From: Myxococcota bacterium
GTDB taxonomy: Bacteria > Myxococcota_A > Polyangia > HGW-17
Assembly: GCA_018821305.1 (NCBI GenBank)
Contig: JAHJMN010000146.1
Location: forward strand, 1 to 64,000
Length of the DNA stretch: 64,000 nt
Direction of reading: 5' to 3'
The position numbers and the translations under genes are program-made. A model generated the notes under the pieces. That model had not been told where the DNA came from. It saw only the letters and a list, made by a program, of their open reading frames with translations, and made no database searches. Positions 6,257 to 11,379 of this stretch are shown piece after piece (positions within the stretch are counted from its first letter, which is position 1; the number at the start of each line of letters is the position of its first letter).

Positions 6257-6370
6257 CTATTTCATAACATTTGTGCGGTGGCACTGACAGCAGTATCCCT
6301 TTTTTCCTTTTTTCTGTTCAGCTCTGCATTTAGCGCATTCAGTGTGTCTACAATAAGAACATTTAGCCAT
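6257..6370 (-). CDS. 37-aa cysteine-rich microprotein, possible zinc-binding knuckle
   Basis: This ORF is too short for the track. The peptide begins MAKCSYCRHTECAKC and ends KGYCCQCHRTNVMK. It has seven Cys and two His, including two CxxC pairs, which would suit one zinc site or an Fe-S site. AAGGAG lies 7 nt before the ATG, a strong ribosome-binding site. The charged spacer QKKGKKG separates the two Cys groups. It sits immediately downstream of, and on the same strand as, the Ser/Thr kinase gene, about 100 nt after that gene's stop. No signal peptide is present. The function is unknown; expression is inferred from the start signals and the composition. Confidence 0.7.
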   Translation of the reverse strand: MAKCSYCRHTECAKCRAEQKKGKKGYCCQCHRTNVMK

Positions 6371-6469
6371 GTTGAAATCTCCTTTCGGCTTTAGTGTGTG
6401 AACTCCGATAAGCGATTATAGTGGAAATTTTCAATACAGGAAGTGGGATTTTAAAAAAAATTACAACCT

Positions 6470-8659
6470 TTATGGTTTTCTCCCGTTATAAGGGTGAAAG
6501 TTGCCATATTCATCGTAATAGCCCTGACTATAATATTGCTCATCGCCAGCATTTGTATTGTCCTGGCCGTAATAGGCATTGTATTCTGACTGGGATAGTG
6601 GATACCAACGGCCATCCTCACCGTAGTAACCCTGCTGTTGGGATTGATCGTAGGAATACCACTGGCCATCATCTGCATAATAACCCTGTGGCTGTTGTTG
6701 GGATTGATCGTAGGAATACCACTGCCCATCTTCCCCGTAATAACCCTGAGGTTGTTGCTGAGATTGGTAAGCGCCGGAATTATTCTGATTGTACTGCTGC
6801 TGTTGTCCCTGTTGCTGATATGGCCCGGAGCTATTTTGATTGTACTGTTGCTGTTGTCCCTGTTGCTGAGATTGGTAAGCGCCGGAATTATTCTGATTGT
6901 ACTGCTGTTGTCCCTGTTGCTGATATGGCCCGGAAGGATATTGTTGCCTTGACTGGTCATATGAATACCACTGACCATCATCCGCATAGTAGCCGCTGGC
7001 CTGATTGTATGGATACCACTGGCCATCATCTGCATAATAACCCTGTGGCTGTTGCTGGGACTGGTCATATGAATACCACTCACCGCTGTGAGGATAAAAC
7101 TCCGGTTGAGAATTGAACTGATTGTTTCCGTATCCGAAACCGTCTGTAAGTTGCGAGTTATCTTCTGCAATGAAGGAATTATGGTCAAGGTAGTTTGCAG
7201 GATAATTATTATTATTATACTCAGAGTTGAATGTGGGCTGATAATTATTGTAATCTTTGAATACTTCGGATGATTCCGTAAGAATTTCCCCTTCCCCTTC
7301 ATCTAAAACCACTTTCAATTCAAGGGATTTGGAATTTCGCTGCTGAGTTTCCGTCATTATTTCGCGGTCAAAAGTGCCACTGACTTGGACACGATCTGCA
7401 CCAAGTGAGCCAGCTTCTTTAGCACTGCGAAGGTTGGACGTAGCAACCTTTGATTTTGTTCCGGGGCGGCCAGGTTTTTGAGGGATTCTTTCCGCTGGCA
7501 TATCAGAAAGACTGTAAATATCAGTTTTTCCAGAAGAATCTTCACTGATTTCACTTATTTCTTCAATGTCGTCATCATCGAGGAGATCATCTACGTCAAT
7601 AACCTCCGATACCGAACTTCCGCTGCTTCCTTCTTCTTCTCCTACGGCAGCAGATGGATACTTATCAAAATCCTCAAAATTAATATTTGAGTACTTTTTA
7701 CGTTTTTCCCAGATTTCCTCGGCATCTTTTTTAAAGTATTCCAACAGGAACTTCTGAAGTTTGGAAGTATTCCACCAATCACCCATCTTGTAGGATATAT
7801 GGGTAAGATCGCTTCCCAGTTCTTCCGCATGGGAATATCGTTTATCACGGTCAAAAGCCAAAGCTTTCATAACAATAGTAACAAGTTCCGGAGAAAGATC
7901 TGGCCGGATATCACCTATGGATGGCCAGTCCCCGGATACAATTCGTCGGAGGTTGTCCATATCGTTGGGTTCATCAAATAGAAGTTTTCCGGCGAGAAGT
8001 TCCCACAAAACGACACCAAGGGAAAAAATATCACTTCGATTGTCAATGTCTTTGCCCTGGAGCTGTTCTGGAGTCATGTAGCCGAATTTACCCTTGACGA
8101 TGCCTGCCTGTGTCTTAGTGGCCCGCTGGGTGGCCTTTGCGATGCCGAAATCGATTAGTTTAACGGCGCCTTCAAAGGAAACGAGAATATTCGCTGGAGT
8201 AATGTCCCGGTGTACAATGTTTAGAGGTTCGCCATTTCGGCCTTTGAGGGAATGGGCATAGTCCATTCCGTCGCATACTTTTGCAATCATGTGAAGTGCG
8301 GCACCGACGGGCAACTGTGTCTTGTTGTCCCACATGTGTTTTTCGATGCCTTTGAGACTGAGACCGGCTATGTACTCCATAACCTGGTAGAAATCTTCAC
8401 CGATTCGTCCGAAATCGTAAACCTGACAAATATTTGCATGTTGAAGACCTGAAGCGATGTGGGCTTCGTCTTTGAACATAGTGACGAAACTTTCATCTTC
8501 ACAGATGTGTGGCAGTATCTTTTTAATGGCAACGGTTTTTTGAAAACCCTCAACACCGAAGTGTTTGGCCAAAAACACTTCCGCCATTCCGCCTGTACTT
8601 ATCCTTTCAAGCAGAAGATATTTGCCGAATCTGGCAGGATACGAAGTTCTAAGACTAAT
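6470..8659 (-). CDS. Ser/Thr protein kinase with low-complexity Tyr/Gln repeat tail, probable ATT start
   Basis: This is a eukaryote-type kinase with VAIKKILP, VHRDITPANIL and LIDFGIAKA motifs. The track starts at an internal ATG (8587) that cuts off the glycine-rich loop. The same frame upstream encodes FGKYLLLERISTGG, which is part of the kinase fold, but it contains no ATG, GTG or TTG before the stop. An ATT at 8659 has GAGGTG four nt upstream and is the best start; an indel in the T-run near 8685 is the alternative. After the kinase (to about residue 300) come an acidic linker (DDLLDDDDIEEISEIS) and, from about residue 510, tandem units like GYYADDGQWYSYDQSQ and QQQYNQNNSGAYQ. No membrane segment is seen. 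It is divergent from the peroxiredoxin gene. Confidence 0.87.
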   Translation of the reverse strand: MSLRTSYPARFGKYLLLERISTGGMAEVFLAKHFGVEGFQKTVAIKKILPHICEDESFVTMFKDEAHIASGLQHANICQVYDFGRIGEDFYQVMEYIAGLSLKGIEKHMWDNKTQLPVGAALHMIAKVCDGMDYAHSLKGRNGEPLNIVHRDITPANILVSFEGAVKLIDFGIAKATQRATKTQAGIVKGKFGYMTPEQLQGKDIDNRSDIFSLGVVLWELLAGKLLFDEPNDMDNLRRIVSGDWPSIGDIRPDLSPELVTIVMKALAFDRDKRYSHAEELGSDLTHISYKMGDWWNTSKLQKFLLEYFKKDAEEIWEKRKKYSNINFEDFDKYPSAAVGEEEGSSGSSVSEVIDVDDLLDDDDIEEISEISEDSSGKTDIYSLSDMPAERIPQKPGRPGTKSKVATSNLRSAKEAGSLGADRVQVSGTFDREIMTETQQRNSKSLELKVVLDEGEGEILTESSEVFKDYNNYQPTFNSEYNNNNYPANYLDHNSFIAEDNSQLTDGFGYGNNQFNSQPEFYPHSGEWYSYDQSQQQPQGYYADDGQWYPYNQASGYYADDGQWYSYDQSRQQYPSGPYQQQGQQQYNQNNSGAYQSQQQGQQQQYNQNSSGPYQQQGQQQQYNQNNSGAYQSQQQPQGYYGEDGQWYSYDQSQQQPQGYYADDGQWYSYDQSQQQGYYGEDGRWYPLSQSEYNAYYGQDNTNAGDEQYYSQGYYDEYGNFHPYNGRKP
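6560..7090 (-). repeat. In-frame tandem repeats coding the kinase tail
   Basis: The DNA holds two interleaved coding repeats. One encodes about five copies of GYY(A/G)(D/E)DG(Q/R)WY plus degenerate end copies, and the other about four copies of a Gln/Asn/Tyr unit. Some units are nearly identical at the DNA level, which suggests recent expansion by recombination or slippage. The repeats also create long open frames in the other readings (6421-7116, 6451-7302, 6638-6952), which are shadows. Confidence 0.85.
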
Positions 8660-8890
8660 AGCACACCTCGGACAGTCAAAACAAAAAATTGTTATGAGAC
8701 ATTCAGTTCATGTAAACCAGATGACTCCGGAGCTGAATTATATAGCAAAATTCAGTTTTATGAAATTTGTAAAGATACTCAACACAAAAAATTAACATTT
8801 TCCAAGCAATTCGCTCTTTTTTCTTATACCCTACAATAGATTAGGATGCGTCCTTTTTTTGACGAAATATAGATATTTGCTCATAAGGTG

Positions 8891-8958: not shown

Positions 8959-9411
8959 ATGAGTGATCTGCCCGAAATAACTCTTTTAGATATGAATGGA
9001 AATTCAGTTTCTCTTGATGGTTTTAAAGACCAGAACGTGATCATTTATTTTTACCCTAGAGACAATACCCCAGGATGTACTACGGAAGCCTGTGAATTCA
9101 GAGATTTTAACGGCGAAATAATTTCAATGGGATATAAAATTATAGGAATCAGTCGGGATTCCGCGGATTCTCACCGGAAGTTTACAGAAAAATATGGTCT
9201 CGATTTTACATTGTTATCAGATCCGGAGATGGAAGCACACAAGGCTCTTGGTGCCTGGGGAACAAAAAAAATGTACGGTAAAGAAACTCAGGGGGTAATA
9301 CGATCAACTTTTGTTTTTACCAAGGGCAAGTTAATTAAATCCTGGACGAATGTAAAAGCCGCGGGCCATGCGGCCAGAGTACTGGAATACATTAGAGATA
9401 AAGTGTCCTGA
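8959..9411 (+). CDS. bcp: Bcp-type thioredoxin-dependent peroxiredoxin
   Basis: This enzyme reduces hydrogen peroxide and organic peroxides with electrons from thioredoxin. The 150-aa length fits the Bcp/PrxQ family. The peroxidatic Cys lies in NTPGCTTEACEFRD, and the second Cys five residues later is the usual PrxQ resolving Cys. No signal peptide is present, so it is cytoplasmic. GAAAGGAAG precedes the ATG. The last codons and stop (GTG TCC TGA) fall in a short stretch, GTGTCCTGAAATTCGCTTTG, that matches the left end of the family A repeats, so the native C-terminus may have been replaced by a repeat end. Confidence 0.93.
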   Translation: MSDLPEITLLDMNGNSVSLDGFKDQNVIIYFYPRDNTPGCTTEACEFRDFNGEIISMGYKIIGISRDSADSHRKFTEKYGLDFTLLSDPEMEAHKALGAWGTKKMYGKETQGVIRSTFVFTKGKLIKSWTNVKAAGHAARVLEYIRDKVS

Positions 9412-9426
9412 AATTCGCTTTGCAAA

Positions 9427-11379
9427 CTAAAGAGACAGGGCTGGGCAGGCTTTAATAACGGAAGAGTTGTTTTTTTCAAGCCCGTAAATGTGCTTTATCC
9501 AACCGGAAATAAGTGGATCAATACGATTATCCTTATTTCTGAATGATTTTGATACGATTTCCGCAATCCAATCCGGTAGATCTTTTCGACCTATTCTAAG
9601 TTCTACCAGATCAAGACGTCTTAATATGTCCGGATCCATGGATGGAAACTGTGCATATTCCCCCAGTTGTTTCTGGTCAGTTTCTTCAATTCGGCCGCGG
9701 CAAATTAATCTATCCAGAGCTTTCAGTTGTTTCTGTTTCTCTCGATAGGGACTGATGTCACTTATTTTAAGTCGGTTGTTCTTTAACGATTTTGTTATTC
9801 GACGTTCCAGTGAATTAATTGCAGCATTGTTAAGTTTTGTTCGCAGAGGTCCCTCTTCGGTAACAAAAATTACAGATCTGGATGTTGCAGGAAAAGCTGC
9901 AGCATAATGATCTCTTCCTCGACAGAGATTTCCCCCCGTAAGTCCGCAGAGGACTGAACCAAGGGCGATAAGTTTAGTGTTACTGCCTTTTTCCTTTAAA
10001 AGTGGTGAAAATAGAGAGGCAGTCATCTGGGTACTGTTAATCGTTTTACGATTCCAAAAAAGGGTAAAAACTGGTATTCCATTTTTGTTAAAATTAGTTA
10101 TTAAATCATTAAGATACTCGATTTGAGATGGTTTATTGAAGTGGATCCAAACGAAAAAAGGTTGTTTAAGAAGATCCAAAACTTTAAAAACCTTATTGAT
10201 ATCTTTTGAAACCATGGGTTTTGAAAAACCGAAATAAGGGTTTGTTCGGAGCCATGGACTGTCTGGTAAATTAGTATCAGTGAAGGCGTAAAGATGGTAT
10301 CCCCACTTTTCCTTCATTGCAGATGGCAAAGTAATTGTATCCATGGGCAACCATGGAGCAAGGTGAACTCTCATACCATAGTGATTTCCTGAAAAAAGAG
10401 TAGCAAGATTGACCAGAGTGTTTTTGTGGGCAGCTCTAACATTAGTATAATGTGAGCCGCCTGGAGATGTAATGTTCATTCCAGAGTCTGAAGTAATTAA
10501 AACCATGGAGGTTGATCGATTGATCCTGAATTTTCCGGGAACAGATTGTTCCACCGAAGGAGAATTATTCACTGTAGTTTTAGGAATGTATTTTTTTCCG
10601 GAAGTTAAAAAGGTGTAACATCGTTCACATGAAACACCAATAGTTTGAGGACTATGCTTCATTGTCCACGACACCCAGGTAATCCCAGCGAGGGCGGCAA
10701 AAAGCAGGACAACGGAAGACATTGGTCTCGCAAGTATACTGCCATCAGTCATTCTTCGGCGGAGACTTTGTTTACGGGATCTTATAGAAAGAACTGTCCA
10801 TATTAGAAGCATGCTTATTAAAAACAGTCCGAGAGCTAGAACTTCCCAGAAAAGAAAAGAAGGAATATACCTGAAACCAATACTTTCCGTGGCAGCGGCA
10901 AAACCAGCAGCGGCAAAAAATACTGCTGTTATTAACAGAACAGATGATGATATATATGCGCTTGAAATTTTTTTAAGAATGGAAAATAGAAAACCCGATG
11001 AGAAATAGATCCCTGCAGTGAGAATTGCGGCTATGCCTGCTTTAGAGAATGTATCAATTTTCAAAGCAGTGATTGGGTAGAGAGCCAGTACACCAAGGGT
11101 CAGGGTGATTGAGTATTTGTAATAGGTCGTCTTTACAACGGTATCTGCTCCAAATTTTTCTATTGCGAATACAATAAGTCCGACAATAAAACCCATGATT
11201 CCCGCTGTACATACCGATATTGCAACATGGAAAGCAGTGATAATTGATATTGCGTTGTAGTTACCCGAACTTATAATTTTAACAAGATCAGGAATTGCAA
11301 GACATAGACCCGCTGGAAGTCCCAGAGCCAGCCCACCGGTTAAATACCTTCTTATAATATTGCGTCTTTCACTAATCAT
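9427..11379 (-). CDS. Multi-pass membrane protein with degenerate sulfatase/alkaline-phosphatase-like domain
   Basis: About six or seven hydrophobic helices occupy residues 10-240. The soluble part then follows the order of sulfatase-like proteins: a strand MVLITSDSG, a segment NLATLFSGNHYG where the nucleophile region would be, and PFFVWIHFNKPS. The usual DHG metal-binding motif is not visible where expected (ALGSVLCGLTGG), so I infer that catalysis is lost or changed. The C-terminal 130 residues are helical. The ATG overlaps the ThpR stop (ATGA), making this the last gene of a four-gene operon. The role is unknown; envelope modification or sensing are possibilities. Confidence 0.6.
   Translation of the reverse strand: MISERRNIIRRYLTGGLALGLPAGLCLAIPDLVKIISSGNYNAISIITAFHVAISVCTAGIMGFIVGLIVFAIEKFGADTVVKTTYYKYSITLTLGVLALYPITALKIDTFSKAGIAAILTAGIYFSSGFLFSILKKISSAYISSSVLLITAVFFAAAGFAAATESIGFRYIPSFLFWEVLALGLFLISMLLIWTVLSIRSRKQSLRRRMTDGSILARPMSSVVLLFAALAGITWVSWTMKHSPQTIGVSCERCYTFLTSGKKYIPKTTVNNSPSVEQSVPGKFRINRSTSMVLITSDSGMNITSPGGSHYTNVRAAHKNTLVNLATLFSGNHYGMRVHLAPWLPMDTITLPSAMKEKWGYHLYAFTDTNLPDSPWLRTNPYFGFSKPMVSKDINKVFKVLDLLKQPFFVWIHFNKPSQIEYLNDLITNFNKNGIPVFTLFWNRKTINSTQMTASLFSPLLKEKGSNTKLIALGSVLCGLTGGNLCRGRDHYAAAFPATSRSVIFVTEEGPLRTKLNNAAINSLERRITKSLKNNRLKISDISPYREKQKQLKALDRLICRGRIEETDQKQLGEYAQFPSMDPDILRRLDLVELRIGRKDLPDWIAEIVSKSFRNKDNRIDPLISGWIKHIYGLEKNNSSVIKACPALSL

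Follow-up and report, generated by a model that had tools for sequence, protein, structure and literature searches.

Translation initiation factor IF3 represses the AUU start of its own gene, infC (PMC9410913). In Streptomyces, it also represses the GTC start of sigR, which lies behind the sequence AGGAGGTG, and a canonical start deregulates that system (PMC5472188). The AUU and AUA starts of cvfC1, ccpN and citZ in Staphylococcus aureus give about 10% of the yield of AUG in poor medium, and that of ccpN gives up to 30% of the AUG yield in rich medium (PMC13009471). AUU starts were proposed for lepA in two species by an earlier survey (PMC1780047).

The gene described here encodes a Ser/Thr kinase and lies on the minus strand of the window (the whole stretch of 64,000 nucleotides that was analysed, from a Myxococcota genome). 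By analogy, it would join the small known class of genes whose starts are discriminated against by IF3, and it is regarded as an addition to a known class because infC, pcnB, sigR, ccpN and cvfC1 are precedents. The nearest parallel is infC of the same genomes: its start, like that of the kinase, is kept within the AUH class (H = A, C or U; isoleucine codons), with a GGAGGTG before it at a similar distance. However, infC encodes IF3 and autoregulates, whereas control of the kinase would act in trans. The analogy with infC drawn in an earlier, sequence-only reading of this DNA would thus hold for IF3-limited initiation but not for literal autoregulation, since the kinase gene does not encode IF3. 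Streptomyces sigR resembles the kinase in specifying a regulatory protein from a conserved non-canonical start with an extended Shine-Dalgarno (SD) sequence (AGGAGGTG), but it is a sigma factor gene of Actinomycetota with a GTC codon, and repression by IF3 is experimental there and proposed by analogy for the kinase (PMC5472188). The conserved AUH starts of S. aureus cvfC1 (AUU) and ccpN (AUA) also have a strong SD and were found by comparison combined with initiation-site mapping, but these genes belong to other protein families, and their initiation and its efficiency have been measured (PMC13009471). Escherichia coli pcnB has, like the kinase, an AUU start outside infC, which is described as limiting expression, but it encodes poly(A) polymerase. 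Finally, bacterial Ser/Thr kinases of the PknB/StkP type have the kinase domain in common with this protein, which differs from them in a score far below the cut-off of the PASTA-kinase model, a Tyr/Gln repeat tail and a non-canonical start.

The kinase frame is open on the minus strand from 8707 to 6471, and the upstream in-frame stop is a TGA at 8710-8708. From this stop down to ATG 8587 it contains no ATG, GTG or TTG, and ATG 8587, the first canonical in-frame codon, lies 3' of the glycine-rich loop FGKYLLLERISTGG (8629-8588). This confirms the initial observation that the loop is encoded upstream of the first ATG, with no usual start codon back to the stop. An ATT at 8659-8657 is preceded by GAGGTG at 8669-8664, leaving a gap of 4 nt. 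The frame of ATG 8702 consists of MSHNNFLF only (8 codons) and ends at TGA 8678-8676. Further upstream, a TATAAT box at 8742-8737 belongs to a plausible promoter, identified by consensus match only. An Rfam search for a known RNA leader at the kinase gave only sub-threshold chance matches. The features of the locus are as follows.

6470..8659, minus strand: Ser/Thr kinase coding sequence with its very probable ATT start at 8659, 729 codons, stop at the low end (open frame; Pkinase PF00069, 136.8 bits; coding signature from ATT)
8657..8659, minus strand: predicted ATT start codon; the homologous codon is ATT, ATA or ATC in 9/10 orthologues including this genome
8664..8669, minus strand: GAGGTG, predicted SD sequence, with the best anti-SD pairing among in-frame candidates (-9.7 kcal/mol)
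8588..8629, minus strand: glycine-rich loop, 5' of the first ATG
8585..8587, minus strand: earliest canonical codon in frame; it encodes the Met of a GGMAEV motif and is not the start
8676..8702, minus strand: MSHNNFLF, a short ATG frame out of register with the kinase and taken to be a chance ORF; without counterpart in the sister genome
8737..8764, minus strand: possible sigma-70-type promoter, TTCATA-16-TATAAT (consensus match only, 10/12; not clearly above shuffled expectation)
7823..8614, minus strand: Pfam Pkinase match
6560..7085 (limits approximate), minus strand: Gln/Tyr-rich C-terminal tail with GYYGEDGQWYPY-type repeats, read from the translation and found in other orthologues of the family

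By a rough estimate, about 40 codons free of canonical starts would occur by chance in about 1 of 8 cases, which is not improbable alone. As their absence over so short a distance is weak evidence by itself, conservation was tested, and the weight of the case for ATT lies in the arrangement in orthologues, the onset of coding at ATT, and the rarity of such starts among kinase and conserved genes.

The orthologue set comprises ten genes, from this genome (G000) and nine related ones, all independent MAGs and together covering four families of one myxobacterial order. Several were assembled separately and carry the labels Deltaproteobacteria, Myxococcota or Polyangiaceae (ZodW, GH18, Old_saline, HGW-17, HGW-22, MM_PC, T11). 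The order is presumably a GTDB order named after HGW-17, in class Polyangia. The ten kinases form one clade (support 100/99), separate from paralogous kinases of the class. Their homologous start is ATT in five (G000, G001, G002, G004, G006), ATA in three (G003, G007, G009), ATC in G008 and ATG in G010, so that a non-canonical AUH codon is conserved in 9/10. A plain ATG, proposed at the outset as a sign against the ATT if found elsewhere in orthologues, does occur, but only in the distant G010 and at the homologous position. It fits a switch of codon there and not an error in the other nine; since G010 has ATG, the AUH start is not indispensable.

The SD sequences were compared over in-frame ATG, GTG, TTG, CTG and ATH codons before or within the glycine-rich loop, and in 9/9 of the AUH kinase genes the homologous AUH codon is the one preceded by the strongest pairing with the 16S tail. 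A scan blind to codons places the best site at the AUH start in seven genomes (G000, G001, G002, G004, G006, G007, G009) and elsewhere in G003 and G008; the SD of G003 is weak. GAGGTG itself is also present in G004, G006 and G007, and the related AGGTG in G001 and G002. In G009 the start reads GGGGAGGTGTTATT-ATA, where the candidates are the ATA, with a gap of 5 nt, and the ATT directly 5' of it, and a GTG three codons beyond the ATA lies at an excessive distance from the SD. In-frame ATG or TTG codons further upstream in G001, G004, G006 and G007 have neither an SD nor coding conservation. The proposal of a start at ATT 8659 with a well-placed GAGGTG is supported by the suggested comparison of orthologues for both elements: AUH and SD stand at the same place in the orthologues, and infC is alike. 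Start position, SD, conserved AUH codon and coding onset (see below) are all strongly supported by these comparisons.

In the mechanism that we propose, the GAGGTG would direct initiation, probably with fMet, to the AUU at 8659 of this PknB-like kinase gene, at a codon kept as AUU, AUA or AUC throughout this order of uncultured myxobacteria, with AUG a rare exception. As in infC and sigR, IF3 would discriminate against the mispaired start codon, making initiation inefficient and dependent on IF3 activity. Kinase production is probably low because an AUH start is policed by IF3, and the purpose may be a low kinase dosage with a level that reflects the condition of the initiation machinery. We consider it likely, by analogy, that a conserved start of low efficiency, limited by IF3, restricts the dosage of the kinase.

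The main rival to an IF3-dependent kinase level is a purely passive role in low expression, in which a genuine AUH start acts only as a fixed weak initiator, keeping the kinase scarce regardless of IF3 level or growth state. This is a serious possibility, although not the one we would expect. A study cited in two reports describes the AUU start of E. coli pcnB as limiting its translation (PMC13009471, PMC9410913), the AUU start of S. aureus cvfC1 shows no medium-dependent change (PMC13009471), and G010 copes with ATG. Against this, the precedents lead one to expect some IF3 dependence of any AUH start, and the fixed initiator therefore differs mainly in physiological meaning from the IF3-limited start that we favour. 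At the other extreme, the kinase could serve specifically to report IF3 status: a shortage of IF3 would raise initiation at AUU, and the extra kinase would signal the translational state to its targets, in an order-wide circuit parallel to infC autoregulation. We regard such a circuit as speculative and unlikely.

A third view, that the lineage uses AUH codons loosely in many genes including the kinase, for example through relaxed IF3 discrimination, appears very unlikely and is rejected. It could draw on infC, which also has an AUH start in these genomes: ATT in G000, G001, G002, G004, G006 and G009, ATC in G003, G005, G010 and G012, and ATA in G008, mostly preceded by GGAGGTG or GGAGGT. However, infC has AUH in other bacteria too, and the IF3 C-domain scores above its curated cut-off in 12/13 genomes. 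The 5.2 Mb genome of G000 has 65 Pkinase-domain matches, a large kinase repertoire; 51 of these genes were examined for their starts, and 50 have a canonical in-frame codon before the domain, the exception being the kinase studied here. A broader survey set 1.07 Mb of G000 sequence (partly overlapping, about a fifth of the genome) against 1.28 Mb of G001 and yielded 352 conserved genes for which the 5' end was available from both genomes. It flagged 15, and in two of them, infC and the kinase, the conserved domain already begins before the first canonical codon; these are the only two without a canonical start, leaving 350/352 with one. The 13 other flags were rejected as non-canonical starts: they look ordinary, in that a canonical start marks the end of the stretch conserved upstream, and many have an SD sequence at that point or a neighbouring gene in a different frame. 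Since nearly all surveyed starts are canonical, the lineage appears to follow ordinary start rules with the usual exception of infC, and it is with infC that the kinase, judged by sequence, has its initiator design in common.

The onset of coding is seen between G000 and its sister species, G001. Over the first 24 codons from the ATT, 9 codons differ, 8 of them synonymously, with mismatches by codon position of 0/1/8, while the 72 nt 5' of the ATT are unrelated, with 18/72 identical, a random level of similarity. The close pair G004 and G007 shows the same change: differences by codon position are 4/4/0 in the 84 nt upstream, a non-coding pattern, and 0/0/3 downstream of the kinase start. Because these patterns switch at the AUH start, longer products from upstream codons are disfavoured, as is a start at ATG 8587, and translation of the kinase almost certainly starts at ATT 8659, and at the corresponding isoleucine codon in the eight other AUH genomes. 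An indel from sequencing or assembly in the T6 run (8688-8683) was the other explanation offered in the sequence-only reading; ATG 8702 is close, and a one-base change would join it (MSHNNF...) to the kinase frame. This is extremely improbable and is rejected, as conservation begins at the ATT and the unrelated region 5' of it has no coding signature, neither the MSHNNF frame nor the T-run has a counterpart in the sister genome, ATG 8702 has no SD, and a canonical start is likewise missing at this place in G002, G003 and G008, which were assembled independently. Gene callers would choose ATG 8587, as the first canonical codon, and thereby a kinase-like protein without the glycine-rich loop. 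This start too is rejected as extremely improbable: the 24 codons between ATT and ATG are translated, given 8 synonymous against 1 non-synonymous difference, the loop residues are invariant across orthologues, and the ATG is an ordinary methionine of the domain, present also in paralogues with canonical starts.

The protein matches Pfam Pkinase (PF00069) with 136.8 bits against a cut-off of 31.7 and has the ATP loop and the VAIKK, HRD and DFG motifs, whose residues are invariant. The nearest solved structures by sequence are PknB and StkP. The PASTA-domain kinase model NF033483 (PknB/Stk1) reaches 247.5 bits against a curated cut-off of 450, through the kinase part only, and the Pfam search of the kinase found no PASTA match. 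In the C-terminal tail, the number of GYYGEDGQWYPY-type repeats varies among orthologues, and the Gln/Tyr-rich stretch is probably disordered. Genes for a CarD-like protein, a DNA methyltransferase, a LigT-like protein and a large membrane protein make up the neighbourhood, which G001 conserves and of which G002 and G003 retain a part. The membrane protein gene (9427-11379, minus strand) keeps its synteny with the kinase in all three of these genomes, and its product has no match in Pfam. A peroxiredoxin (AhpC-TSA) gene at 8959-9411 on the plus strand and the kinase gene diverge from each other, an arrangement also present in G001; at the other orthologous loci no such gene was found adjoining the kinase. 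On the 3' side of the kinase, a small Cys-rich ORF (MAKCSYCRHTECAKCRAEQKKGKK...) begins at about 6300-6371 on the minus strand, behind AAGGAG.

Retention of an AUU, AUA or AUC start is known for few bacterial genes, and in the open-access literature searched no protein kinase is among them; a search of these papers for bacterial kinases starting at ATT gave nothing relevant. Gene callers restricted to ATG, GTG and TTG would misplace the start of these kinases, either inside the domain, with loss of the ATP-binding loop, or at an incorrect codon further upstream. What distinguishes the present case is that the member is a kinase and that the whole AUH set is conserved order-wide. Because the AUH class is conserved and infC has the same design in these genomes, the kinase would be a natural test of whether discrimination by IF3 in trans may set the dosage of a signalling protein.
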